Source: Hyunsoonleella aquatilis (GTDB taxonomy: Bacteria; Bacteroidota; Bacteroidia; Flavobacteriales; Flavobacteriaceae). From it: a DNA stretch of 64,000 nucleotides. The notes below the pieces were generated by a model. The model had not been told where the DNA came from and made no database searches. It saw nothing but the letters and a program-made list of their open reading frames with translations. Shown piece by piece: positions 13,400-37,504 of the stretch. Each line of letters starts with the position of its first letter. The first letter of the stretch is position 1. The position numbers and the translations under genes are program-made. The DNA is taken from the NCBI RefSeq assembly GCF_014270105.1, contig NZ_JACNMF010000006.1:62001-126000 (forward strand), given 5' to 3'.

Positions 13400-14155
13400 T
13401 TATGCCAAATTTGAAGAAATAATTTCACTTATTCCATTTAAATCCCCAGTCTGGATATAATAGTTAGAAGCATCCATTTTAGTTTTTCCGTTTAGAAGTG
13501 CGCTTTGAGGAAGTATCTGTTTTTTGGAAATAATTTCTTGAAGAAATATCGCATGGGTTATAAATCCAGGGATGTCATAAAACCAATCTTCAGCGGTAAT
13601 CAATCCAAATAATTCATCTTTTCCAACTTTATCCGAATAGAACAGCCTGTTTTTCCTAAGGATATTTTTGATGTCCGGCTTTATTCTGATAAATACGAAA
13701 AAATCATATCGATAGGTATTACCGCTTTCTAAGTTGGGAAGGTAATGCCCTTTGTGATTCCAATCTTTTTCTTCAAGCAACAACAAGTTGGAAAAAAAAG
13801 CGGCCGATTTTACATTGATATGCTTTCCATTCACCACAAAATCAGAATCGTCCCAAAGATTTTGTCCCATAATCCTAAAATCTACTGGGGAGCATTCCAA
13901 GCCACTTGACGTGAAAAACTGAAACAAAGCTATCTCAGCCAATTTTCCCTGAAAAGTATTTGAAAATTTCTCGCCATTGCGCCTGTTGGACTGACCGCCA
14001 GACCTGTGGCCTCGATGAAACCCGCTTCCGAAACACATTTCATAAGCAAAATCAAAGGCCTTTTTTATGTCGATTTCATTTAAGGGGTTTCCGCTAAATG
14101 GCCGTTTAGAATTAATGAAATACCCGTTGGGGGCGTTGAATGATAATGGCCTCAC
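13400..14155 (-). CDS. Putative type II restriction endonuclease, partner of the adjacent methyltransferase
   Basis: This 251-residue protein starts with GTG (MRPLSFNAPNGYF), 3 bases after the methyltransferase stop, which implies co-transcription. I do not recognise a named enzyme. A plausible PD-(D/E)XK nuclease core is visible: Glu74 in FQGKLAEIALFQFF, Asp105 in DDSDFVVNG and Lys116 in INVKSA. The position normally held by Glu/Gln before the Lys is Asn114, giving D-x8-N-x-K. Context is the main support. The recognition site would be that of the methyltransferase, which cannot be read here. Cutting is expected to be blocked by C5-cytosine methylation of the same site. Confidence 0.65.
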   Translation of the reverse strand: MRPLSFNAPNGYFINSKRPFSGNPLNEIDIKKAFDFAYEMCFGSGFHRGHRSGGQSNRRNGEKFSNTFQGKLAEIALFQFFTSSGLECSPVDFRIMGQNLWDDSDFVVNGKHINVKSAAFFSNLLLLEEKDWNHKGHYLPNLESGNTYRYDFFVFIRIKPDIKNILRKNRLFYSDKVGKDELFGLITAEDWFYDIPGFITHAIFLQEIISKKQILPQSALLNGKTKMDASNYYIQTGDLNGISEIISSNLA

Positions 14156-14158
14156 GAT

Positions 14159-15202
14159 TTAAAGCACTTTTACTATTTGATTTGCAATCCTTTCCACCAA
14201 AGGCATAGTGACCGAATTACCCGCTTGCATATACAGTTTGCTATTCGCAATGTTTGGCAAAATGTATCTGTCCATTGGATACCCTTGAAACGCAAAGCAC
14301 TCTTTAGGAGTAAGCTTTCGGATACCGAAATCGTCTTTAATTAAAGGCACATTGTGCCCACCAGTACCCATATTGGCCGTTAAGGTTGGGCACACATTGC
14401 TTTTGTTTTCGCGCACATATACCCTTCGCCATTGATACATCGTATTCGGATTAGTCATGGTTTTCACCAATTCCGGGTAATATTTGTGATCAGGCGAATA
14501 GTAATATTTCTCGTCCTTTTTGTCGCTTTCCAAAAGGTCGTGAATGGTTTTGGTCAATGGCACTTTGCCTGGAAAATCAAAGTCTCTATAATTTGTAACT
14601 TGTTTCGGGTCAAAAGCCACGACAAATATTCGCTCCCTGTTCTGGGGGATATTGGCATGGGTCATAGAATTTAGCACCTCATAATACACCTTATACCCAA
14701 GTTTTTTCTCCAAAATCTCTAAAATGACTTTGAAGGTTTTCCCTTTGTCATGCGACACCAGATTTTTAACGTTTTCCAAAAACAACGCTTTTGGTCTGTG
14801 GGTTTCTATAATCTGTTCCACATCAAAAAACAAAGTGCCTCGAGTATCAGAAAAGCCCTTTCTGTAGCCCGCAATCGAGAAAGCCTGACAAGGGAAACCG
14901 GCGCAAAGCACATCAAATTTTTCAGGAATAAACTGCTTTATGGATTCATCAGTAATATCGCCAAAAGGGACATCGCCAAAATTGTCAGCATAGGTAACCT
15001 TGGCCTCTTTGTTCCATTCACTTGTAAATACACATTTACCCCCTACATTTTGCAAGGCCAATCGAAAGCCACCTATACCGGCAAAAAGGTCGATGAACTC
15101 AAATGTTGTGGATTCCGATGATGGGAAAGGGACGTTAATTTTAAAAGATTCGGTTTTAATCTCTTTCAGATTTTCTACTAATTGCATGCTGTTTATTGCC
15201 AA
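14159..15202 (-). CDS. DNA (cytosine-5)-methyltransferase of a type II restriction-modification system
   Basis: The conserved C5-MTase motifs occur in the normal order over 347 residues: I (FIDLFAGIGGFRLAL, 36-50), IV with the catalytic Cys105 (AGFPCQAFS), VI (FLENVKNL, 141-148), VIII (QNRERIF, 187-193), the variable target-recognition region (about 200-295), IX (RKLTPKECFAFQGYP) and X (QAGNSVTMPLVE). It methylates cytosine at an unknown short site. A second in-frame ATG at residue 6 is also a plausible start. It precedes its presumed nuclease by 3 bases. No controller (C) gene is visible. Confidence 0.92.
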   Translation of the reverse strand: MAINSMQLVENLKEIKTESFKINVPFPSSESTTFEFIDLFAGIGGFRLALQNVGGKCVFTSEWNKEAKVTYADNFGDVPFGDITDESIKQFIPEKFDVLCAGFPCQAFSIAGYRKGFSDTRGTLFFDVEQIIETHRPKALFLENVKNLVSHDKGKTFKVILEILEKKLGYKVYYEVLNSMTHANIPQNRERIFVVAFDPKQVTNYRDFDFPGKVPLTKTIHDLLESDKKDEKYYYSPDHKYYPELVKTMTNPNTMYQWRRVYVRENKSNVCPTLTANMGTGGHNVPLIKDDFGIRKLTPKECFAFQGYPMDRYILPNIANSKLYMQAGNSVTMPLVERIANQIVKVL

Positions 15203-15518
15203 AATTTACTCGGACAAGATAGGGAGTCTTTAAGAAAATATTCGATTTATACTAGATGGTTTTACACTTTTTTTAAACAGGGTGCAATGGATGTCATAAA
15301 AAAATTCCAAACTAAAAAATATCTTGGGCTTCTAAGTTGGGCCACCACGGTTCGGAACAACTGATTCAATATTTCTTTACCATTTAATAACGAAGTTTGC
15401 TGATAATCAAGGGTATTGACTATATGTAAGCTTAAGGGTACTATATTTTTTCTAAACAAGTAAGATTTTGTACCTTTTATTACTATTTTTTTAAATTTGG
15501 GGTTAAATAATTTATCCA
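15203..15518. other. Divergent intergenic region of the defence island
   Basis: This 316-bp AT-rich gap separates the methyltransferase (minus) and the double-DUF262 gene (plus). It holds a well-spaced plus-strand promoter (15467-15499) and a near-consensus minus-strand TAAATTTTG at 15200-15208, which overlaps the methyltransferase start region. An 85-codon minus-strand frame fills most of it but looks non-coding. Confidence 0.5.
15467..15499 (+). promoter_or_regulatory. Bacteroidota promoter of the double-DUF262 gene
   Basis: TTTG at 15467-15470 and TAAATTTG at 15492-15499 are separated by 21 bases, matching the -33/-7 architecture of the phylum. The -7 box lies 19 bases before the ATG at 15519. 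This is the best-formed promoter I found in the window. Confidence 0.65.
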
Positions 15519-18104
15519 ATGGAACAAGGAATTTTTGAAAAGATTTTTAAGGAGCATATTAAAATAGAGACATCACAAAAAAGTATTGACGGTTTGTTTA
15601 CTCCTAGGATGAAGAATAAAACTGACTATAGCCCATATTATCAAAGAAATTATGTTTGGGATGAGAGTAAGGCTACTCATTTTATAGAAAGTATTTTTTT
15701 AGGAACAGAACTTCCTCCTCTAATCTTTTTCGAAAATGAAGACGGTATTGAAATAATTGATGGAAGACAACGGTACGAAACAATCTTTAGGTTCATGGAA
15801 AATGAGTTTTCTTTAAAGCTTAATGGATTAACGGTACTCACACAACTAAAAAATCTGAAGTATAACTCCCTTGGTAAGAAGTCAAACGATCTTCTAGAAC
15901 GGTTTTTAGAGTGTAAAATTAGAATCATTAACTTTCAAATTGTAAATCATCCTCCCCTTAAAATTGATCTTCAAGACAGAATAAAAAAAGAGATTTTTCT
16001 TAGATACAACTCTGGAATCACGCCTCTGAAAAGAGAAGAGGTTGATGATGCTAGGTATGACAAAGATGAGCTAACTAATTTTTTCAAAAAGAAGCTTAAT
16101 AATCAAAATACCCACCAGTTATTCCAAAGTACCCTATTTACTGGTTCAGACGTTATTTATAAAAAACACACCGTGGCGAAAATTATGAATCAAGTTAGGG
16201 TAGAGTTGGTTTTACCGAAATATCCAATTGAACAATTTTCAAAAGGTGGTGTCTCAAAGATCGTAGAGAAACTTTATGAGTTTTATATAACAAATAAAGA
16301 CAAATCTGATGAAAAGGTTTTTATTGGGTTTAGAGATAAACTGGAGTTTTTATCCAAAGTCATCAAAAAATCTAAAAAAAATGAACGGAAAGTTAATCAC
16401 CTTGGATTAAGGACATTGTTGTGGGGAATTGGTATTCTAGAAATAGAGGGGGTTAATGTTAAGTTTAAAAATGATTTGATAGAAAAGTCCTCTTTATTTA
16501 TTGATGAGAATATTAATTATTTTTCAACAGAATATAGTACAAGAAGAGAGAATATTTTTAACCGATATTTAATAGTGCAAACCTTTTTAGAAAATATTTT
16601 TGATGTTGACTTATCATCATATATTTCAACTAATTCAAAGTTTGACAAAGTAAAAAAAGGGCTTTCGCATAGAACTCCTAAGACTAAACTTGAAGAGTTG
16701 AATAATCTCGGTTTATCTAAACCTGAACCCTCTAATATGTCGATTGAAGATGTGGTTAGAAAAATGAATAGAAGAAAGTTTCTAGTAAGACCTTCATACC
16801 AGAGGATTGAAGTCATTAATCAACAGAAAAAATCATCAATAATTGAGAGTATTTTACTTAACATAAAGCTACCCCCTATCTTTATTTTTAAACGTTTAGA
16901 TGATGTTTATGAGGTAGTTGACGGTCAACAAAGACTGCTAACTTTATTGAGTTTTATTGGGGAATCGTATACAGATCAAAACGATAAGAAAATTTACTCA
17001 AAGGACAACAAATTCAAATTAAAAGACCTCAGGATATTGTCTGAATTGAATGGATTGAGCTTTGAAAATCTTACTGATAAAATGCAAGATAAATTATATG
17101 ATTTTCAACTTTATATTGTTGAAATTGACTCTTATAAAAATCCTTCTTTTGATCCAATTGATTTATTCATAAGACTAAACGATAAACCATATCCTATAAA
17201 ACAAAATTCTTTTGAAATGTGGAATTCTTGGGTTGACAAGGAAATCATTTCAAATATAAAAACATTAAAAAACGAATTATATCCGTGGTTTCACATAAAA
17301 ACAATCACAAAAAAAAGTGATAGAGATAGGATGGAAAACGAAGAACTAATTACTTCCTTTTGTTATGTGGAAATGGCTAAAGGTAATCTTGGTGATGTTA
17401 TTGATGTATATCAACGTGATAACATTGATCTTGAGAAGACAATTACATCTAAAATTAATGCTAGAATTAAAACAAAAAGTAGAATAAACAAACTTTTACT
17501 TGAAACCTCAAAAGACGAAAAGGTGAAAAAGGAATTTTTGGGTTCTATAAAAAATGTCAAGTCTAAAATCAAAAATTTAAAAACTATCTTAATTGACCGG
17601 AATCCACAAGAAAATGAATCTTTAGCCGATTTTTTAAAAACTGAATTGGATAAGATTGTTGTTGATGGCAATTCTAGAAAACTAAAAAACTTCTATTTAA
17701 TCTGGATCTTAATTTCAAAATCAAATTTTCAATTAGTTAAATTTAAAAGAAACGACATGAAAAAAGATCTTGTTAAAATGATTAAGTTTTACAATAAAAG
17801 TCATTTGAATTTTTCCAAAGATCTCGATTATAATTTGGTAGACAAGTTTGCTGAGGACTCTAAGTTCTTCATTAAAAACTACAGTCCTATTTCAACTAGA
17901 AAAAGAAAACTTACAATGGATGAAAAAAAATCATTGTTGGATGAACAAGGTGGTAAATCTTCTATTAGCGGAGCCACAATGTATATATGGGACGAGATCG
18001 AAGTCGACCATAAAGTCCCTATATCACTTCAAGGAAAAGATGAAATCGAAAATTTAGGTATTGCACATAAGATTGAAAATAGAGAAAAAGGCAGTAAGCT
18101 TTAA
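15519..18104 (+). CDS. Tandem DUF262-DUF262-HNH protein, probable anti-phage nuclease
   Basis: This 861-residue protein is unusually Lys/Asn/Ile-rich and AT-rich against its neighbours. Two DUF262 (ParB/sulfiredoxin-like) modules are visible. The first has YQRNYVW (41-47) and DGRQR (81-85); the second has SYQRIEV (Gln428-Arg429) and DGQQR (468-472). The last 60 residues form an HNH-like site: Asp830-His831 in EVDHKVPIS, Asn845 in IENLG, and NREKG (854-858). The cysteines that usually bind zinc are absent (KSSISG where CxxC is expected). DUF262 with a nuclease is the logic of GmrSD-type modification-dependent restriction and other defence proteins. It lies beside a restriction-modification pair and has its own promoter. 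Role inferred; domains seen. Confidence 0.8.
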   Translation: MEQGIFEKIFKEHIKIETSQKSIDGLFTPRMKNKTDYSPYYQRNYVWDESKATHFIESIFLGTELPPLIFFENEDGIEIIDGRQRYETIFRFMENEFSLKLNGLTVLTQLKNLKYNSLGKKSNDLLERFLECKIRIINFQIVNHPPLKIDLQDRIKKEIFLRYNSGITPLKREEVDDARYDKDELTNFFKKKLNNQNTHQLFQSTLFTGSDVIYKKHTVAKIMNQVRVELVLPKYPIEQFSKGGVSKIVEKLYEFYITNKDKSDEKVFIGFRDKLEFLSKVIKKSKKNERKVNHLGLRTLLWGIGILEIEGVNVKFKNDLIEKSSLFIDENINYFSTEYSTRRENIFNRYLIVQTFLENIFDVDLSSYISTNSKFDKVKKGLSHRTPKTKLEELNNLGLSKPEPSNMSIEDVVRKMNRRKFLVRPSYQRIEVINQQKKSSIIESILLNIKLPPIFIFKRLDDVYEVVDGQQRLLTLLSFIGESYTDQNDKKIYSKDNKFKLKDLRILSELNGLSFENLTDKMQDKLYDFQLYIVEIDSYKNPSFDPIDLFIRLNDKPYPIKQNSFEMWNSWVDKEIISNIKTLKNELYPWFHIKTITKKSDRDRMENEELITSFCYVEMAKGNLGDVIDVYQRDNIDLEKTITSKINARIKTKSRINKLLLETSKDEKVKKEFLGSIKNVKSKIKNLKTILIDRNPQENESLADFLKTELDKIVVDGNSRKLKNFYLIWILISKSNFQLVKFKRNDMKKDLVKMIKFYNKSHLNFSKDLDYNLVDKFAEDSKFFIKNYSPISTRKRKLTMDEKKSLLDEQGGKSSISGATMYIWDEIEVDHKVPISLQGKDEIENLGIAHKIENREKGSKL

Positions 18105-26674: not shown

Positions 26675-26876
26675 ACCCGCGTTAGGGATTGCAGCGGCAT
26701 CCTTTTTAAGGCTATTAAAAAACCTAATTTTGATTTTAGGCTGATTATTTAAAAGATTGCCACGGCGTAAACGCCTCGCAATGACGCATTAAAAAGATAT
26801 AGCGGAAAGCCCGCCCCGAGGATGGATTTTATATGTTTCGGACGAATGTGACATCGAGGGTAACGCCCAAAAATAT
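26675..26876 (+). repeat. Composite interspersed repeat, copy A
   Basis: It begins near GCGTTAGGGATTGCAGCGG, contains the REP-like GATTGCCACG...CTCGCAATGACG palindromic segment and AGCCCGCCCC, and ends GGTAACGCCCAAA. Copies B (30484-30651) and C (63746-63856, reverse) share both ends. Its right end lies 6 bases before the radical SAM start codon, so it may carry or influence that gene's expression signals. Confidence 0.65.
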
Positions 26877-28661: not shown

Positions 28662-30458
28662 ATGAAGCACATTAGGAACTTTTGCATTATCGCGCATATT
28701 GATCATGGGAAAAGTACGTTGGCCGACCGTTTGTTGGATTATACAGGTTCGGTAACGGCACGTGAAAAGCAGGACCAGTTATTGGACAATATGGATTTGG
28801 AGCGCGAACGTGGGATTACCATCAAATCGCACGCCATTCAAATGGACTACGAGTATCAAGGCGAAAAATATATTTTAAACCTCATCGATACCCCTGGTCA
28901 TGTGGATTTCTCTTATGAAGTGTCCCGATCTATTGCCGCTTGCGAAGGTGCTTTGTTGATTGTAGATGCGGCGCAAAGCATTCAAGCACAAACCATTTCC
29001 AATTTATATCTGGCTTTGGAAAACGATTTGGAAATTATTCCAGTTTTAAATAAAGTGGATTTGCCAAGCGCCAACCCAGAAGAAGTGACAGATGATATTG
29101 TGGATTTATTGGGTTGTGACCCTAAAGAAGTGATTCATGCCAGCGGTAAAACCGGCTTTGGTGTGGACAACGTTCTGTCCGCTATTATTGAGCGCATTCC
29201 AGCACCAAAGGGTGACCCAAATGCACCATTGCAAGCCTTGATTTTTGATTCTGTTTACAACACCTTCCGCGGGATTGAAACCTATTTTAGGGTATTTAAT
29301 GGTGAAATCAAGAAAGGGCAACATATTAAATTTGTCGCCACAGGCAAAGATTATTACGCCGATGAAGTGGGTACTTTAAAGCTGAATCAAGTCGCCAAAC
29401 AAAGCATAAAAGCTGGTGATGTTGGCTATTTGATTACAGGTATAAAAACGGCCAAGGAAGTAAAAGTTGGGGATACCATTACAGATTTTGCTAAACCAAC
29501 TCAAAACATTGTTGAAGGGTTTGAAGATGTGAAACCTATGGTATTTGCCGGGATATATCCCGTGGACACCGAGGATTATGAAGAACTTCGTGCATCCATG
29601 GAAAAACTGCAACTGAATGATGCCTCTTTGGTGTTTCAACCTGAAAGTTCAGCAGCATTAGGTTTTGGTTTCCGATGTGGGTTTCTAGGGATGCTCCACA
29701 TGGAAATTATCCAGGAACGCTTGGAACGCGAATTTGATATGACGGTAATTACCACAGTGCCCAACGTGTCCTATCATGCATTTACAAATAAAGAACCCGA
29801 CGAGATAATTATTGTAAACAACCCGTCTGATTTGCCCGATCCTTCTACTTTAAACCGTGTGGAAGAACCTTATATCAAGGCTACCATTATTACAAAAGCT
29901 GATTTTGTGGGCAACGTGATGTCACTGTGTATCGAAAAGCGCGGTATTATCACCAATCAAACGTATTTGACCACCGAGCGGGTTGAACTGACATTTGAAA
30001 TGCCTTTGGCAGAAATTGTTTTTGATTTTTATGATAGGCTCAAAACAGTATCAAAAGGCTATGCGTCTTTTGACTACCACCCCATTGGTATGAAGCCTTC
30101 AAAATTAGTACGATTGGATATCTTACTGAATGCGCAACCAGTTGATGCACTTTCGGCCTTGATACATGCAGAAAACGCCCAAACCATTGGTAAAAAGATG
30201 TGTGAGAAATTAAAAGAACTGATTCCGCGTCAGCAGTTTGACATTCCAATTCAAGCGGCTATTGGTGCCAAAATTATTTCGAGGGAAACTGTAAAAGCCC
30301 TCCGAAAAGACGTAACTGCAAAATGTTACGGTGGCGATATTTCGCGTAAACGTAAACTTTTAGAAAAGCAGAAAAAAGGTAAAAAACGCATGCGCCAAGT
30401 AGGTAATGTTGAAATTCCGCAACAAGCATTTATGGCGGTTCTGAAGTTGAATGATTAA
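28662..30458 (+). CDS. lepA: Elongation factor 4 (back-translocating ribosomal GTPase)
   Basis: This 598-residue translational GTPase begins [19 protein letters not shown] with G1 AHIDHGKS, G3 DTPGH and G4 NKVD, and ends with the LepA-specific C-terminal domain ([25 protein letters not shown]). The length matches the family. Its last 69 bases are repeated almost exactly at 34967-35035, which shows that foreign DNA has been inserted after the gene; lepA itself remains intact. Confidence 0.98.
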
Positions 30459-30483
30459 GCACAGACTTTAGCGCATTGTTACT

Positions 30484-30651
30484 AGGGATTGTAGTGGCAT
30501 ACGTTTTAAGGCTTTTGAAAAGCTAAATTTGATAATAAAAATCATTTATAAGATTGCCAAGTTGCTTTGCTCCTCGCAATGACGCCTTAAAAAAACTACA
30601 AGAAGGCCAGCCTAATAGAAAGCTCGACCCTTGTGGTAACGCTCAAAAACT
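30484..30651 (+). repeat. Composite interspersed repeat, copy B
   Basis: It runs from near TAGGGATTGTAGTGGC through GATTGCCAAG...CTCGCAATGACG and CTCGACCC to GGTAACGCTCAAAAA. It matches copy A in order and spacing but is diverged. It fills the space between lepA and the convergent LytTR gene. Confidence 0.6.
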
Positions 30652-31415
30652 TATTGTTCTAACCACTTTCTGAAATCTGATGTGGTGGAGGAGCTCGTCA
30701 TTACTTTTTCTCTTACATGCGTCATTTGGATAAGCAACCTGTTCTTAAAATGGCTTTCTATGTTTTCGATATAATCGATATTTATAATCTCGCTACGGTT
30801 AATTTTAAAGAACTTTGTGGGGTGCAATTGTTGATGAATGGCACCTAGATTTTGCGATATACTATGACGTTTTCCTTTGTTATCTGTAGCAATACAAAAA
30901 TCTCCCGAAGCCTCAATAAGATTGATGTCTGACACATTTAACAACTGAATACCTTTTGCTTTTTTGATGACAAAACGTTTTTTGTAATTGTTGTGCTCTG
31001 CTCTTAAAGCCGATTTGAGTTCGGCAATGGTTTGCTGATTTAACTTGTTATAATTTCCTTTTTGAAATAACGATTGGTATTTCTCAATGGCTTTTTTAAA
31101 ATCGGATTGTGTATAGGGTTTTAAGATATAGGCGATACCATTGGTGTTAAAGGCTTGAAATAAATACTCGTCGTGTGCAGAACAGAATATAATGGGAGAT
31201 TCTATGAAAATTTCATTGTACAAATCGAATGACAAACCATCTAACAATTGAATGTCTGATAAAATAAAATCGTATTTATTTTTGAGAAGTAATTCCATAC
31301 CTTCATTATTTGATCGCGCCCAGTCGTGAGAAACTTCTTCTTCAAAATAATCATTTACAAAAGAAACTAATTTCTTGTATGCAGGTATTTCGTCTTCTAA
31401 AATTAAAATTTTCAT
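30651..31415 (-). CDS. LytTR-family response regulator
   Basis: This 254-residue regulator has a receiver domain (1-120; acidic pocket Glu7/Asp8, phospho-acceptor Asp54 in ILSDIQLLDG, the switch Lys in ILKPYTQ) and a C-terminal LytTR DNA-binding domain (about 155-254; NRSEIINIDYIENIE). It follows its LytS-type kinase by 9 bases. The kinase, regulator and TonB-type receptor form one minus-strand operon inside the lepA-tail-bracketed insert. Confidence 0.92.
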   Translation of the reverse strand: MKILILEDEIPAYKKLVSFVNDYFEEEVSHDWARSNNEGMELLLKNKYDFILSDIQLLDGLSFDLYNEIFIESPIIFCSAHDEYLFQAFNTNGIAYILKPYTQSDFKKAIEKYQSLFQKGNYNKLNQQTIAELKSALRAEHNNYKKRFVIKKAKGIQLLNVSDINLIEASGDFCIATDNKGKRHSISQNLGAIHQQLHPTKFFKINRSEIINIDYIENIESHFKNRLLIQMTHVREKVMTSSSTTSDFRKWLEQ

Positions 31416-31424
31416 GCCTGAAAA

Positions 31425-32429
31425 TTATTCAATAAGTTTAATAATTGGAATGGAAATAGTATATTTTTTATCTGTGTTTATAATAACAATTTTTTTGTCC
31501 GATAGTAATTGATACCTTGCTTTTAAATTATCTAATCCTGTTCCAAAAGATTCGTTTTTAGAAGGGATACTCGATTTTGTATTTATAACTTTTAGCGCAT
31601 TGTCTTCTACTAAAATAGTAGCTTTAATTGCTTCGTTATTTCGAGGTTTATTATGTTTTACCACATTTTCTAAAAGGGTTTGTATGGCTCCTGTGGGAAT
31701 AAATTTGTCTTCAATAGTAGTATTAACATCAACCTTAAAATCGTAATCATTTTCAAAGCGCGTTTTGATTAAAAAAATGTAGTTTTCTGCTAATTCAATT
31801 TCCTCAGCTAGTTCCATAACCTCGGCATCTTTTGTTTTAATTAAATAACGGTAAATTAAAGATAATCTGTTAGTGTATTCTTTTGCTTTATCTGGGTTAC
31901 CATCAATTAAACAGTCTAAGGTATTTAGGTTATTAAACAAAAAATGCGGGTCTATTTGAGAACGTAGTGATTTTAGCTCGTTTTCTTTTTGTTGTTTTTC
32001 AACAGTTAATAACAATGTTTGGTTTTCATAGAATTTTTTGGTTAAAAGTAATCCGAAAAGAAACCCTGTATTGTCTGAAGCTGTCGAAATTCCTAGAATA
32101 GCAAGCTTGTGCCATTTTGGGAGTTCGCTCCAACTGTAACCTTGTGCAAAAAAAACGATAGTTTCAAGTAAGGCCCCAAAAAAGGACAATATTAAAACTC
32201 CAAAGACAATAAAATAAAAGTATCTTTTCTTAAATAAATACTTTGGAATCAGCACATTAAAGAAAACAACAATAATAATTAACGAAATGAATATAGATGA
32301 AAAAGTATCAGCTATAAAAACGCTGTACAAGTCATTTTTAGAATGGTATGTAACTGTCATTAAAAGGACGAATACCGAATAGTAAATTACCAATAAGATT
32401 CTATCTGATGTATTAAATTTAGTTACCAT
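31425..32429 (-). CDS. LytS/YehU-type sensor histidine kinase
   Basis: This 334-residue membrane kinase has four predicted helices in residues about 10-130, then a linker and the His_kinase domain with the phospho-accepting His162 in SQIDPHFLFNNLNTL. The ATP-binding region has an N-box (LLENVVKHNKP) and a GTGLDNLKARY glycine motif. No extracellular domain is present, so the signal is probably sensed in or at the membrane. It lies 16 bases after the receptor gene and 9 before its LytTR partner. Confidence 0.92.
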   Translation of the reverse strand: MVTKFNTSDRILLVIYYSVFVLLMTVTYHSKNDLYSVFIADTFSSIFISLIIIVVFFNVLIPKYLFKKRYFYFIVFGVLILSFFGALLETIVFFAQGYSWSELPKWHKLAILGISTASDNTGFLFGLLLTKKFYENQTLLLTVEKQQKENELKSLRSQIDPHFLFNNLNTLDCLIDGNPDKAKEYTNRLSLIYRYLIKTKDAEVMELAEEIELAENYIFLIKTRFENDYDFKVDVNTTIEDKFIPTGAIQTLLENVVKHNKPRNNEAIKATILVEDNALKVINTKSSIPSKNESFGTGLDNLKARYQLLSDKKIVIINTDKKYTISIPIIKLIE

Positions 32430-32445
32430 TAGTTAGTGTTTACCT

Positions 32446-34842
32446 CTAGTTTCCCGTGCGCCCTTTCTCTTCTGTGTTTCCAGTTTGATGTCTTTTAGCA
32501 TTAATGTTTTTATTGCCAAATTTGTAGCTCACAGATAGTTGAAACCATCTGCTGTCATAATAATATCTTGCTGTTTGAAATACGCCATTAACTCTACTTT
32601 CATTTCTTTCTACAGAACTTTTAAAAATATCATTTCCTCTCAAGGATATATTTAAATCCTTTTTCAACATTAAATATTGCAGGGATAAAGATAACGAACT
32701 GGCTGATTTCGTGTTAAAAACACCATTTACACCAGGAAAGCTATACCAAAAATAGACTCCTAATAGTAACGTTTTATCAGTATTCACATTAAAATCATTA
32801 TAGGTTGAAATGGTTGCATTTACTCCTTTTTGATCCTCTTGTTGCTCTTCTAAATTAAATTCTGATTTGGAATAATTTACATCGAAACTATTATTACTGC
32901 TCCACCATTTAATTTTATTGAATGTGTAGTTTTCTGAAAAGCCAATTCGATTTGTATTTATAAAATTTTCATTGGTAAAACGAATAATATTTGTAGAAGT
33001 ATCTGCTAATGGCACTTGTGAAAACAAATTATCTTCGTAGCTATAGTATAGTTTTGTTATGAAGTTTTTATGAGTATTTATTAATTCAAAATTATCTATG
33101 AAGGCTGGTTGTAAAAAAGCATTTCCTTCGATGGTTTGAAACGGGTTAACAAAATATAAATTTGGATTCAACTCAAAAAAACCTGGTCTATCAATACGCT
33201 TGCTATAATTAAATGAAAACATTGAGTTTTCTGTTGCGTTATATGACAAATAAAACGTTGGAAACAACTTTGTGTAATTATTTTTAACTGATGGATTTAA
33301 ATTAATGGATTTAGAATTTGTTTGAGTCGCTTCCATTCTTAACCCAAATTTCACACTCCACTTATCACTTAGATTTTTATTAGCAGAAATATACAATGCT
33401 TGAATGTTTTCTTTATACTGAAAATCATTTTCAGATAAGGGCAAATTTGTAACTGGAGCGTTAACCAATCCACTGTTAAAAAACAAAATATCATTTAATG
33501 AGTTTGTGTTTGATATTTTCCCTCCAAAACTTAAATCTATCCTGTCTAAAGGATATTCTATATCTAATTTAACAGATACATTTGTTACATCTTGTTTATT
33601 TGTGTTTGTGCCTCTATAAAATTGTTCTGAAAATGGGTTTTTTATAATTGAAACCCCATCATAGGTTTTGGTGTCTAGGTTTTTATATGCGAAGTAATCT
33701 AAATTAAAAATTATTTTTCGCCCTAAAGTATCTATGGCAACCTCATTGTTATAGTTTAAGGAATGAATTTCTGGTCTTAAATCCATTGTTCCGTCAGATT
33801 GGAGTGATCTTAAAGTTTCATTGGTATTGTAATCAAAAACAGGAGTAAAAGGAGCATCTGTTACACCAAAATTTGTGTTATTGTATAAATACTGGCCGCC
33901 CATTGCCCATTTAGAGGTGATTTGGTAATTTATATCTATTCTTCCATTGAGCCTCTTAATATCTGCTTTAAAAGGAGAAGACGTGTACCAAAGTCCATCC
34001 GGAAAATAGGCGTAATCGTCTTGTTCTTGATAATAAGTTCCGTTGTTATAATTAAATGACGTTGCTACACTAAACTTATTTTTGTTAAAATTAAAATTCC
34101 CTCCCAAAGATCCCGTAGAATAGCGCTGCTGTCTGTAAGCAGATTTTAACTGGGCATTCCACGAATCCTTCTTGGCTTGTTTTAAAATAATATTAACCAA
34201 CCCGCTATTGCCCAATGCTTCATATTTTGCCGGGGGCGTTGTAATAACTTCTATTCTTTTTATGTCCTCTGATGCTATTGATTTTAAAAATTCGGAAAGA
34301 TCTTCGTCTGATAATTGTACGATTTTATCGTTAACCATTACCTGAAGACTACTTTTCCCTATCATAGTAATTCTATTGTTTTGTACATGTATCGCCGGAG
34401 TAACCTTTAAAACTTCTAAAGCATCCCCCTGAGAAGCTTTTGATGAATTTTCAACATTAAAAACTAGGCGGTCTATTTTTTGTTGAATTAGCTTCTTTTT
34501 TGCTTCAACAACAACTTCACCCAATTCCCGAGAACTTTCAACACCTATAACACCCAAGTTAATAGGTTCCTCTGCTACAGTAATCTGCTTGGAATAAAGT
34601 ATTTGCCCAACATAGGTAACTTGCAAGGTGTAATTTCCTCGATTGGCATTGAATTTAAACATGCCCTTTTTGTCCGTTATAACACCCGTAACAATCGAAG
34701 ATTGATTAGTAAGTAACGTTATTTCAGCGAACTCTAAAGGTTGTTTGTTTTCATCTATTATTGTTCCTGAAACCTGGTTTTGAGCGCGCAATGAAATTAA
34801 GCCTAATAGGAATACTATGATAATTTTGATTAATACATTCAT
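32446..34842 (-). CDS. TonB-dependent outer-membrane beta-barrel receptor
   Basis: This 798-residue protein has a signal peptide (to about LRAQ, residue 20), a CarboxypepD_reg-like fold (about 22-100; SGTIIDENKQPLEFAEI), a plug-like segment (about 115-220; KKLIQQKIDRLVFNVENS...GLVNIILK) and a long outer-membrane barrel ending in YKFG. This is the 'outer membrane beta-barrel family' subtype without a SusD partner. The ligand is unknown. It is first in an operon with a LytS kinase and LytTR regulator, so uptake and signalling are probably linked. Confidence 0.88.
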   Translation of the reverse strand: MNVLIKIIIVFLLGLISLRAQNQVSGTIIDENKQPLEFAEITLLTNQSSIVTGVITDKKGMFKFNANRGNYTLQVTYVGQILYSKQITVAEEPINLGVIGVESSRELGEVVVEAKKKLIQQKIDRLVFNVENSSKASQGDALEVLKVTPAIHVQNNRITMIGKSSLQVMVNDKIVQLSDEDLSEFLKSIASEDIKRIEVITTPPAKYEALGNSGLVNIILKQAKKDSWNAQLKSAYRQQRYSTGSLGGNFNFNKNKFSVATSFNYNNGTYYQEQDDYAYFPDGLWYTSSPFKADIKRLNGRIDINYQITSKWAMGGQYLYNNTNFGVTDAPFTPVFDYNTNETLRSLQSDGTMDLRPEIHSLNYNNEVAIDTLGRKIIFNLDYFAYKNLDTKTYDGVSIIKNPFSEQFYRGTNTNKQDVTNVSVKLDIEYPLDRIDLSFGGKISNTNSLNDILFFNSGLVNAPVTNLPLSENDFQYKENIQALYISANKNLSDKWSVKFGLRMEATQTNSKSINLNPSVKNNYTKLFPTFYLSYNATENSMFSFNYSKRIDRPGFFELNPNLYFVNPFQTIEGNAFLQPAFIDNFELINTHKNFITKLYYSYEDNLFSQVPLADTSTNIIRFTNENFINTNRIGFSENYTFNKIKWWSSNNSFDVNYSKSEFNLEEQQEDQKGVNATISTYNDFNVNTDKTLLLGVYFWYSFPGVNGVFNTKSASSLSLSLQYLMLKKDLNISLRGNDIFKSSVERNESRVNGVFQTARYYYDSRWFQLSVSYKFGNKNINAKRHQTGNTEEKGRTGN

Positions 34843-34966
34843 AACTGCTCGTTATTGATTGATGGAATAAATTTATGCGCATAAGCTTGGTTTTGGAAAC
34901 AGTTTCTGACGAATCGGGGTTAAAACAGGTTAAAGACTGTTTTTTTGTTGATGAGTTTAAAAACTA

Positions 34967-35035
34967 ATGCGCCAAGTAGGTAATGTTGAAATTCCGCAAC
35001 AAGCGTTTATGGCCGTTTTGAAGTTGAACGATTAA
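34967..35035 (+). pseudogene. Duplicate of the lepA 3' end
   Basis: These 69 bases match 30390-30458 at 65 positions and encode the identical last 22 LepA residues and stop. All four differences are synonymous (GCA/GCG, GCG/GCC, CTG/TTG, AAT/AAC). The copy is therefore a displaced genuine lepA end rather than a random repeat. It marks the right border of the inserted receptor/signalling cassette. Confidence 0.9.
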
Positions 35036-35055
35036 TCTTTTTTGTATCTTTCTTT

Positions 35056-35706
35056 ATGTATATTGCTTGCATGGAGGGCCGACCAAAACACATCCTTATT
35101 TGCGAAGACCATCAAATTGTTGTTGATGGCCTGCTTTCTATTTTTGAAAACCAGCCTGATTATCAGGTTAAGGGCTATATTTCAGACGGAAATAAAGTCA
35201 TTCCTGAAGTAAAAAAGCATAATCCCGATGCTATTTTATTAGACCTAAATCTTCCCAATAAAAACGGTATTGATATTTTAAGGGAGCTCAAGATTTTGTT
35301 TCCAAAGTTAAAGGTGATTATACTCACCATGTACAATAAGGAAAGTATCGTAAAAAAAGTGCAACAGCTAAAAGCGGATGGATTTTTGCTGAAAAATTGT
35401 ACTTCTAATGACCTTTTAAATGCCTTTGATTCGGTTTTTGAAAATGGCAAATTTTACCTTGGGAAAGGGGTAAAAAAGACAATCGACGAAACCGATGGCT
35501 TCATTCAAAAAATAAATATCACCCGAAGGGAAAAGGAAATTATTGCAGAACTTATTGAAGGCCTAAATGTTCCCGAAATAGCAGAAAAGTTATTTATTAG
35601 TGCCTATACTGTAGAAACCCACAAAAAAAATATCTTCAAGAAATTAAATATCCATAATTCCATTGACCTTGTAAAACTTGTAAATGAAAAAAAGTTGCTT
35701 TCATAA
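35056..35706 (+). CDS. NarL/FixJ-type response regulator
   Basis: The receiver domain has the acidic pair in LICEDHQ and phospho-acceptor Asp63 in ILLDLNLPNKNG. The C-terminal LuxR helix-turn-helix (about 150-212) reads TRREKEIIAELIEGLNVPE...YTVETHKKNIFKKL. An alternative start at 35071 (MEGRPKHILI) would shorten it by five residues. The last 23 bases overlap the following kinase gene, so the two form a coupled two-component pair. Before the insertion, this gene lay about 20 bases after the lepA stop. Confidence 0.92.
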   Translation: MYIACMEGRPKHILICEDHQIVVDGLLSIFENQPDYQVKGYISDGNKVIPEVKKHNPDAILLDLNLPNKNGIDILRELKILFPKLKVIILTMYNKESIVKKVQQLKADGFLLKNCTSNDLLNAFDSVFENGKFYLGKGVKKTIDETDGFIQKINITRREKEIIAELIEGLNVPEIAEKLFISAYTVETHKKNIFKKLNIHNSIDLVKLVNEKKLLS

Positions 35707-37504
35707 CAGTATTCTTTTTTTCCTCATAGCTTGTTTAGGCTCTTGTCTCAGCACGCAAGCGCAGATGGATACCCTTGTGTTAGACTCAAACTTCAAGACC
35801 ATCAACCTAAAGCAGTTTTCGGTAATTAATCAAGACGAAAGTCATCAGAAACCAGACACTAGGAACTACTTTTATTTCAGTTTCAACAACACCTTCAACA
35901 CTATTGATTTCGTACTAAAAAATGAGACTGACGCGGATAGAACCGTCATGTTACAGTTGAGTTATGTGTACATTAAAGAAATAGTTTTGAGCAAAAATGA
36001 AAAAGGTGGTTTAATCCCGCTTTCTACGACCGGCATTGAGCACCCTATTTCCAGTAAGGCAGTTTCGCATAGGTTGTTTACGTTCCCCATTCGGCTCAAC
36101 CCAAAAGAAATAGGGGCTTACCAACTAAAATTGAAAAAAGAGGAAGGTAAACCATTGGCCACTTCGGTGTGCTTAAAAAGTGAAAACACCTTTGCAAAAC
36201 AAAATTTTAAGCAGCAGTTACTGATTGGGGGCTATTTTGGGGTGAGCCTCTTGTCCTTCGTTTTCAGTCTGTTTATCTTTTTCTTTCTAAGGAATAGTAT
36301 TTATGTCATTTATGCTGCCTATATAGTTTCTTTGGGCCTGTTTATCAGTGCCTACATTGGAGTATTTTCACAGGTGTTTTTAGATGAAAACAGTACCGTA
36401 AATAAATATGCCAATTATGTAGTATTTAGCGAAGTTTCCTTAATCCTTTTTGCATTGTTTTCGCAAAAAATATTGGAGACCAAAACTTATACACCCAAAT
36501 TAAAAAAAGGTATTGAGTTTTTTTTAGGTATCGTAATAGCATTAAGGCTATCGATACACTTTATTTTTACACATATTTTTGAAAATGCAGTTGCCGTATT
36601 TATGAAAATCTGGTATGGGTTTTTTATCATTCTCATCAGTATCATAATTGTGCAAATAACGGTGTATTACAGAAAGAACAATAAGCGCACATCCCTTTTT
36701 GCGCTCGCCTATATTTTTATGATTTTTGGAACATTTGCCAGCATTCTATACCACAGCTATGGTTTAATCGACACCTATTTTTACGATTTACCAGTGCTTT
36801 TTTACACTTCGTTTTTAGAAATACTATTCCTAACACTTACAGTGGTATTTATGGTGAAGGACATATATGACGAACGTAATGTGCTTTCTGAAAAAATAGT
36901 TATTGAGGAACGTAAAAACTTAACTGCGTTTATAAAAGGCGAGGACGAAGAAAGAAAGCGCATAGGCAAGGAATTGCACGATAACATAGGAAGCAAGCTT
37001 AGTGTTTTGAAACGTTTTGTTTCCGATAAGTTTAATGATGAAAAAGTTACCGAAACCATTGATGCCATTTGTAATGATGTTAGAAATTTATCCCATGAAA
37101 TTTCGCCATCGGATTTAAAAATCGTGGGGTTTAAAAATGCGGTGGAAGACCTTTCAAAAACACTTACAGATCAAACATCGCTACAAGTTAATTTTAACAG
37201 CTTTCAATTTCCAGAAACTTTAGACGAAGAAACCTCGATTCAATTATATAGAGTTATTCAAGAAGCATTTAATAATATTTTAAAGCATGCCAACGCAAAA
37301 CAAGTGGATGTACAACTTATGGGGCATGATGATAGCTCTACCATATCTATAGAAGACGATGGCAATGGTTTTGATTTAGCGAATACTAAAAATGGTTTGG
37401 GCTTAAAAAATATGCAATCTAGAATTCAACAAATAGGAGGTTCAATTTCTATCGATACTTCTCCACAAAAAGGCGCATCAATTCTTATTTCAATATCTAA
37501 ATAA
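35684..37504 (+). CDS. 7TMR-DISM-type sensor histidine kinase (HisKA_3)
   Basis: This 606-residue kinase has a signal peptide (to about STQAQ), a periplasmic beta-rich DISMED2-like domain (about 30-165), seven membrane helices (about 180-395), then HisKA_3 with His432 in ERKRIGKELHDNIGSKLS and an HATPase_c domain (N-box QEAFNNILKHANA, G-boxes DDGNGFD and GLGLKNM). This is the standard partner of NarL-type regulators. It overlaps the regulator gene by 23 bases. The extracellular domain probably binds a carbohydrate or other small ligand; no ligand can be named. Confidence 0.92.
   Translation: MKKSCFHNSILFFLIACLGSCLSTQAQMDTLVLDSNFKTINLKQFSVINQDESHQKPDTRNYFYFSFNNTFNTIDFVLKNETDADRTVMLQLSYVYIKEIVLSKNEKGGLIPLSTTGIEHPISSKAVSHRLFTFPIRLNPKEIGAYQLKLKKEEGKPLATSVCLKSENTFAKQNFKQQLLIGGYFGVSLLSFVFSLFIFFFLRNSIYVIYAAYIVSLGLFISAYIGVFSQVFLDENSTVNKYANYVVFSEVSLILFALFSQKILETKTYTPKLKKGIEFFLGIVIALRLSIHFIFTHIFENAVAVFMKIWYGFFIILISIIIVQITVYYRKNNKRTSLFALAYIFMIFGTFASILYHSYGLIDTYFYDLPVLFYTSFLEILFLTLTVVFMVKDIYDERNVLSEKIVIEERKNLTAFIKGEDEERKRIGKELHDNIGSKLSVLKRFVSDKFNDEKVTETIDAICNDVRNLSHEISPSDLKIVGFKNAVEDLSKTLTDQTSLQVNFNSFQFPETLDEETSIQLYRVIQEAFNNILKHANAKQVDVQLMGHDDSSTISIEDDGNGFDLANTKNGLGLKNMQSRIQQIGGSISIDTSPQKGASILISISK

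Follow-up and report, generated by a model that had tools for sequence, protein, structure and literature searches.

A second lepA 3' end downstream of lepA in Hyunsoonleella aquatilis and the variable genes beside it in Flavobacteriaceae

Many islands insert at the 3' ends of genes, and islands integrating in this way restore the gene that they enter, as e14 does in icd of Escherichia coli. At lepA, the gene for elongation factor 4, a gene end may likewise have been replaced by an incoming copy and the old end displaced. Unlike integrase-driven gene-end islands, however, the lepA inserts examined are without an integrase, and the displaced ends (tails) are without a constant attachment core.

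According to the available part of a 2017 study of hotspots (PMC5635113), variable genes often lie between conserved genes without a recognisable mobile element, and recombination in the flanks explains their exchange. The lepA site resembles the hotspots described there in holding variable genes, with no mobile-element genes found in the inserts examined. It would belong among the core-gene-flanked turnover hotspots, set apart by retained tails and serial stacking: whereas that account has double recombination at both flanks, at lepA partial core-gene ends remain and modules stand in series. In homology-facilitated illegitimate recombination, as the accessible portion of an experimental study presents it (PMC3240628), homology at one end is combined with illegitimate joining at the other, so that one junction would be clean and the other arbitrary; the lepA site, by comparison, is read from genomes only. 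Merodiploids made by natural transformation, so far as the available text describes them (PMC3784515), arise when chromosomal DNA is duplicated via alternative pairing with the sister chromatid; there the duplicated stretch lies between two repeats, whereas here it is some 70-200 bases of one gene end. The portions available to us of the literature on lepA integration sites, islands and integrases, and on lepA in flavobacteria, hold no description of this site, and the part of PMC4494060 that we could consult uses lepA as a marker only.

The repeated lepA end in the window

The window is the whole 64-kb stretch of H. aquatilis DNA that was analysed (Table 1). An earlier sequence-only reading had described a repeated lepA end here, and a recount confirms it: the two copies form an ungapped direct repeat alike at 65 of 69 bases, both code for the last 22 LepA residues and the stop, and the four differences (positions 39, 48, 52 and 63) are all synonymous, the first 38 bases being identical. 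An in-frame ATG opens the displaced copy. Extended upstream, the repeat is alike at 74 of 82 bases, the added 13 containing four mismatches; left of the displaced copy only a short AAAAAC is common to lepA, which itself reads through. The runner-up among ungapped 69-base matches within the window reached 35 of 69 on the plus strand and 34 on the minus strand (mean 18.2, s.d. 3.7), a comparison that rules out a chance origin. The sequence-only reading had allowed that the tail might prove a general repeat, or that all relatives might share one arrangement with both tails. Neither is so: searched with the second copy and its flanks, the 3.93-Mb genome to which the window belongs (G000) yielded no third copy, the tail thus standing at two places only, and the relatives vary in arrangement. 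The repeat and the LytTR, LytS and TonB-type receptor genes that it had placed between the tails were also recovered, by Pfam domains and own-genome matches.

Table 1. Features of the window around the two lepA 3' ends
Feature	Position	Strand	Basis
lepA, complete gene of elongation factor 4 (598 aa)	28662..30458	+	ORF; PF06421 LepA_C, PF00009
lepA 3' end, repeat copy 1	30390..30458	+	65/69 vs copy 2
Dispersed repeat, lepA to LytTR gene; end overlaps LytTR stop	30478..30660	.	12 further partial own-genome matches
LytTR-type response regulator	30651..31415	-	PF04397, PF00072
LytS-type membrane histidine kinase	31425..32429	-	PF06580
TonB-dependent-receptor-like outer-membrane beta-barrel protein	32446..34842	-	PF14905, PF13715, PF00593
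TTTCTGACGAATCGGG box upstream of receptor gene, candidate regulator site	34903..34918	+	similar in relatives
Displaced lepA 3' end, repeat copy 2 (putative joint scar)	34967..35035	+	match to copy 1
lepA-stop/narL junction, resembles empty sites	35033..35072	+	37/40 G002, 36/40 G008
NarL/LuxR-type response regulator	35056..35706	+	PF00072, PF00196
7TMR-DISM histidine kinase	35684..37504	+	PF07695, PF02518

Neighbours of lepA and displaced tails in relatives

What follows lepA differs from genome to genome. Across 97 loci, the recognised gene that came first in the 1.5 kb next to lepA was glgA in 26, a member of another family (c8) in 25, LytTR in seven, RR/HK in five, a lipoprotein gene in five and narL in two, the remaining 27 having none of the listed families; variable content therefore lies beside the same conserved gene, as at core-gene-flanked turnover hotspots. 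Empty sites, in which the lepA stop lies about 20 bases before narL and which the sequence-only reading had suggested looking for, exist in G002 and G008, and the other cargo that it had anticipated is found as well, relatives carrying other modules after lepA. The arrangement lepA-narL without the LytTR operon occurs also in another genus (L214), and the LytTR operon runs from lepA to glgA without narL in L192, L222 and L245. In the sister pair G007 and G002 (100/100 in the lepA tree) the operon is present in one and missing from the other. G003 and G007 have both the LytTR operon and narL, yet no decayed tail was detected in either at E values up to 1. This counts against a joint scar: either an old tail can vanish by decay, or certain joins leave no tail behind.

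Displaced lepA tails (E<1e-6) amount to 12 copies in 10 genomes, some outside the genus of the window, all downstream of lepA and on its strand; lepA upstream regions gave a single chance-level match (E 0.27). lepA is full length in all 10 genomes, which, together with the other cargo, supports the proposal that its end is a cargo site that keeps the gene whole. The order of modules is lepA-LytTR operon-tail-lipoprotein-RR/HK-narL in G005, lepA-RR/HK-tail remnant-LytTR operon in L098, lepA-lipoprotein-tail-LytTR operon-tail-glgA in G248 and lepA-RR/HK-tail-glgA in L242. Tails range from about 66 to more than 200 bases and their left ends differ between copies; G005 has a decayed tail of about 206 bases, and the window, G198 and G324 have copies that start at the same ATG, codon 577.

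The 12 copies do not include those of L047 (E 0.0023) and L102 (E 0.75) or the 27-base remnant in L098, which was read by eye; L182 and L227 (E 0.46 and 0.77) were treated as chance, and G179, which was flagged too, is uncounted because the second lepA end there lies on a different contig. Five of the 10 genomes (G198, G248, G270, G324 and G385) were chosen since a family-wide tail scan flagged them. L246 was left out of the sample, six of the other 79 loci have less than 6 kb downstream, and L036 and L046 were too short for the displaced-tail search. The rate is modest, an extra LepA tail in cis being found in 6 of 397 family genomes and in 1 of 79 in a less selected sample. No pgk tail in cis was found in the same 397 (Fisher P 0.03), a contrast that concerns one gene and small numbers, and the pgk end is less conserved, which makes remnants harder to detect; pgk gave two second matches, one on another contig and one 2 Mb away.

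A proposed joining of two lepA neighbours and its alternatives

We consider it on balance probable that Flavobacteriaceae have a site of gene turnover bordered on its left by the lepA 3' end, that the window holds two of its alternatives in series and that the displaced tail is the scar of their joint. Relatives show lepA-LytTR and lepA-narL separately, whereas the window has both in series, and we read the second tail as the joint. The modules after lepA vary by genome: LytTR/LytS/receptor, narL/HK, RR/HK, a small lipoprotein and others are found, and in some genomes nothing precedes glgA. The window has lepA with LytTR/LytS/receptor and lepA with narL/HK in series, and the 69-base tail would be what remains of the lepA end of the second arrangement. 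One-sided homologous recombination probably made the joint: DNA of a related strain would have entered and recombined through homology at one of its sides, either within lepA or to the right of the tail, and its other side would have been joined with little or no homology. The direct repeat would permit an exact loop-out, restoring the empty site. We note that a ComEC-type competence gene is present; as 10 of 14 control genomes carry one too, E. coli among them, the support that it lends is weak.

Hotspots free of mobile elements are usually explained by traceless double crossovers, whereas here partial copies of a core gene would expose single events. Such events would be roughly datable, copies with synonymous differences only looking young and decayed copies old. 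The entry of genes into such sites would thus be readable from genomes and testable, in this case for receptor and sensor genes exchanged beside a housekeeping gene that remains intact.

If instead the lepA end and its downstream DNA had been duplicated locally in tandem, with deletion and divergence afterwards, nothing need have come from another strain. The 12 displaced copies together show 66 synonymous and 35 non-synonymous differences, an excess with P values of 1e-10, 2e-7 and 1e-5 at expected synonymous shares of 0.34, 0.40 and 0.44, the range that we estimate for a drifting local copy; at a share of 0.6 the excess is gone (P 0.16). For the four of four synonymous differences in the window alone, P is 0.013-0.038 at shares of 0.34-0.44 if the differences are shared with lepA, 0.002-0.006 if only the free copy has changed, and 0.13 at 0.6. 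Three copies (both in L109, and L242) show no synonymous excess, and that of L101 has 6:3 synonymous to non-synonymous differences in its last 69 bases and 21:22 over 206. Under most assumptions, then, 66:35 exceeds the drift of a local duplicate and favours recombination between lineages, and judged by these differences one of the tails more likely stems from another lineage than from this one. This much of the sequence-only reading, that a lepA end came from a related strain, gains in likelihood. Different modules flank the tail in the window, G005, G248 and L098, which also argues against local duplication. In its favour are the lipoprotein-tail-lipoprotein order of G270, the two tandem non-coding 265-base units of G324 and the 3-kb repeat bearing a lepA end in G385, which at least partly resemble tandem duplication and so count against joined modules, as well as the identical 38 bases with which the window tails begin. 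We regard local duplication as unlikely.

Quite unlikely, in our view, is that one old insertion took place in an ancestor of the genus, that the second tail looks young only through repeated refreshing by gene conversion with lepA, and that G002 and G008 lost the operon when their tails recombined with each other. It would suit the LytTR tree, in which the window is grouped with G003, G005, G007 and two uncultured Algibacter (98/98), and G003 itself, whose right junction begins at the lepA stop (37 of 40 bases alike to the corresponding junction of the window) and which by eye has the start of the lepA-LytTR spacer in common with the window. The decayed tail of G005 bears no trace of refreshing, however, and the receptor and the LytS sensor half of the window are of another kind than their counterparts in the genus.

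Distinctly unlikely is that Flavobacteriaceae use the lepA 3' end as a dedicated, integron-like growth point, to which convergent sensor modules are added successively, the lepA end being renewed at every addition and the previous one left as a scar; if it were, a row of dated scars would record the order of acquisition. Site-specific integration, in which a recombinase acting in trans would insert modules at the lepA end with the 38 identical bases as attachment core, would account for lepA staying whole, for the shared codon-577 start of three copies and for one site reused with different cargo, but is very unlikely, as no recombinase or mobile-element gene was found among 14 ORFs between lepA and tail (Pfam) or six more assigned by similarity to LytTR, LytS and receptor, and tails of such varied length and left end are unlike a fixed core.

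For the joining of two lepA neighbours, which we prefer, the direction can be taken either way. The sequence-only reading had the cassette enter and displace the old tail; the mirror event, in which narL/HK with its own upstream lepA fragment arrived and was added on the right-hand side of a lepA-LytTR operon already in place, would produce an identical structure. The nearest lepA end assigned no donor to either tail, 69 bases being too few, and sliding identity along the lepA of the window showed no break near its 3' end. Branching near the window in the narL/HK tree, compared with the lepA tree, is too weak to indicate direction; L099 and L100 are placed differently in the lepA and LytTR trees, in which the forks near the window are weak.

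The receptor operon and the NarL pair

The LytTR, histidine kinase and receptor domains lie in adjacent genes on one strand, as in a two-component system with a receptor. From what is known of these families, the receptor most likely senses or imports, LytS signals and LytTR regulates the receptor promoter. The operon adjoins lepA in 57 of 80 LytTR loci of relatives, convergently in all 57, which rules out a cassette foreign to the lepA neighbourhood; it is probably an old neighbour, and therefore not stray cargo that chanced on lepA. The receptor of the window is 81% identical to that of L098 and 22-31% to those of other loci, among the receptor matches listed, and segment identities show the N-terminal sensor half of LytS to be unlike its counterparts in the genus. 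A Flaviramulus-like donor of the whole operon fits the receptor and the LytS sensor half only and is unsupported for LytTR.

Of 12 genomes of the genus, 6 have a match to the NarL regulator at E<=1e-60. The regulator may in fact begin with the ATG at 35071, and the 7TMR-DISM kinase is its probable partner. By eye, G003 has sequence resembling the dispersed repeat at 30478-30660 in the corresponding position, and L098 has such sequence ahead of LytTR. The TTTCTGACGAATCGGG box, with up to three mismatches and counted over the 7 kb after lepA irrespective of its place relative to the receptor, occurs on the lepA strand in 23 of 56 loci and on the other strand in 6 of 56.

Two neighbours of lepA in series

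The window carries two alternative arrangements of lepA in series, lepA-LytTR and lepA-narL. Its two lepA ends are identical at 65 of 69 bases in a pairwise comparison and are separated by a dispersed repeat and by the LytTR operon, which encodes a regulator of LytTR type, a kinase of LytS type and an outer-membrane receptor of TonB type; behind the second end, or tail, lies the narL/HK pair, which encodes a NarL regulator and a histidine kinase. Elsewhere in the 64 kb no place exceeds 35/69 identity to the lepA end, and no third copy turned up when the window's genome (3.93 Mb) was searched. We note that 2 of the 13 matches of the dispersed repeat flank lepA in this genome, one on either side.

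Features of the window
Feature	Position	Remark
Cytosine methyltransferase and 861-aa protein	13400-18104	opposite strands
Dispersed repeat, match before lepA	26683-26795
lepA, complete	28662-30458
Dispersed repeat, match after lepA	30478-30660
Receptor and LytS sensor half	31425-34842	seem to move as a unit
Box like TTTCTGATGAATTGGG	34903-34918	candidate LytTR target
Second copy, last 69 bases of lepA	34967-35035	4577 bases further on

Neighbour counts indicate that lepA-LytTR and lepA-narL are two among several standing alternatives. Across 97 loci (79 taken with the most similar lepA ends first, plus the 18 nearest relatives), we scored the first recognised gene to start no more than 1.5 kb beyond lepA: glgA in 26, a member of family c8 in 25, LytTR in 7, another response regulator/kinase pair (RR/HK) in 5, a lipoprotein gene in 5 and narL in 2; 27 loci, short contig ends included, had none of the recognised families. 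The LytTR operon is a common neighbour of lepA: when genome contigs were scanned with LytTR and the best 80 of 155 relatives kept, a full lepA lay within the fetched DNA at 57 of the 80 loci and was convergent with LytTR in all 57.

Within the genus, the NarL gene has a match at E<=1e-60 in 6 of the 12 genomes sampled. The sequence-only reading had proposed looking for an empty site, and two of these genus-mates, G002 and G008, have one, with about 20 bases between the lepA stop and narL; the window's junction behind its second tail agrees with them at 37/40 and 36/40 bases, respectively. In G003 and G007 the LytTR operon sits between lepA and narL with no tail detectable, and the right junction of G003 begins at the lepA stop, with 37/40 bases as in the window. 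The order in G005 is operon, decayed tail of about 206 bases, lipoprotein, RR/HK pair and narL. The lepA tree places G007 and G002 as a sister pair (100/100); the operon is present in G007 and absent from G002.

Displaced lepA ends in the family

A protein-level search of 397 family genomes with the last 66 LepA residues gave more than one match in seven. In six of them (G000, which is the window's own genome, G198, G248, G270, G324 and G385) an additional match sits no more than 6 kb downstream in the same orientation; in G179 it is on a different contig. The end of pgk, used as a control, had a second match in 2 of the 397 genomes and none in cis (6 vs 0 in cis, Fisher P 0.03). Run on 80 oriented loci in which some genomes are represented twice, a profile built from lepA-end DNA recovered 11 distinct displaced copies from 9 genomes (E<1e-6). 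Every one lies downstream of lepA and in its orientation, and the upstream regions gave a single match, at E 0.27. The sample of 79 loci added one further tail, at locus L242 (E 1.6e-8), and its reversed sequence gave no lepA-end match at E up to 1.

Tails stand behind the LytTR operon in the window, G005 and G248, behind RR/HK in L242, behind small lipoproteins in G270, L171 and G248, behind a protein of 350 aa in L099 that starts like a lipoprotein and has no Pfam match, behind a T9SS-sorted protein of 659 aa in G385, and behind non-coding units with hairpins in G198 and G324. These last units (L089, from G324, 2000-2540; L090, from G198, 1990-2260) are about 190 bases long with inverted hairpins at their borders, are in tandem in G324, and have behind each of them a lepA tail that begins at the same ATG. 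At L091, L093, L171, L041 and L037 we also observe cysteine-containing proteins (80-90 aa) that resemble lipoproteins and are encoded on the strand pointing towards lepA; the three tested had no Pfam match. Of the ORFs of at least 60 residues between lepA and tail, 17/18 point towards lepA (19/20 with the borderline locus L047). Pfam searches on 14 of the 20 gave no recombinase match, and the remaining six are similar to LytTR, LytS or the receptor.

Origin of the tails and direction of the join

Over their last 69 bases, the 12 displaced copies differ from resident lepA by 66 synonymous and 35 non-synonymous changes. For a copy drifting freely beside a constrained parent we estimate from site counts an expected synonymous share of about 0.34-0.44, at which this excess has P 1e-10 to 1e-5 (0.16 at a share of 0.6). 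It is located in the window, G324, L091, L099 and L171, the last with few differences, and is absent from the tails of L109 and L242. In the window, bases 1-38 of the repeat are identical and the four differences, within the last 31 bases, are all synonymous; P is 0.002 to 0.006 assuming drift in the free copy alone and, if part arose in lepA, 0.013-0.038 at shares of 0.34-0.44 and 0.13 at 0.6. From the synonymous excess across the 12 copies we conclude that most well-kept tail/lepA pairs probably accumulated their differences while both were functional lepA ends, each in its own lineage, and came together afterwards. This supports the earlier suggestion that DNA of a related strain recombined here. 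Already known are hotspots exchanged through recombination at flanking core genes (PMC5635113) and one-sided, homology-facilitated illegitimate recombination (PMC3240628); alternative neighbours stacked at lepA with scars of the core gene did not come up in the part that was read of our literature search, which was limited to open-licence papers.

As to which side arrived, the evidence leans slightly towards the narL/HK pair having brought along a piece of its own lepA: the start of the window's lepA-LytTR spacer is, by eye, like that of G003, and the window LytTR groups with those of G003, G005, G007 and two uncultured Algibacter (98/98). On the alternative, that of the sequence-only reading, the operon would have arrived together with a new lepA end and the old tail would have been pushed downstream; no break was seen in the window lepA, and the window tails are too short to place.

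Apparent exchange within the operon, and other loci

Identity to the window receptor is 81% for the receptor of L098 (uncultured Flaviramulus) and 22-31% for the other receptors listed. Residues 1-120 of the window LytS show 67-82% identity to L098 and 25-40% to G003, G005 and G007, and residues 151-260 show 85-88% to all four alike; on this profile the window LytS is a mosaic, with an apparent exchange break near residue 120-150, and the kinase core and LytTR follow other relatives. The same break appears between the LytS of L098 and that of its LytTR sister L167 (32-37% before vs 87-96% after). Judging by these identities, receptor and LytS sensor half seem to move as a unit, in the window as in L098 and L167, apart from the kinase core and LytTR.

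The TTTCTGATGAATTGGG-like box lies before the receptor gene and has similar sites in relatives, on the lepA strand at 23 of 56 loci and on the opposite strand at 6 of 56. L037, L038 and L093 have between LytS and receptor one more membrane protein, about 180-210 aa long, that the window lacks; it carries a HEMSH motif and by eye is metallopeptidase-like, and the two tested had no Pfam match. Elsewhere in the window, a cytosine methyltransferase (PADLOC MTase_II) adjoins an 861-aa protein that matches NsnA and REase_II models and that we take to be DUF262-like, a possible defence locus.
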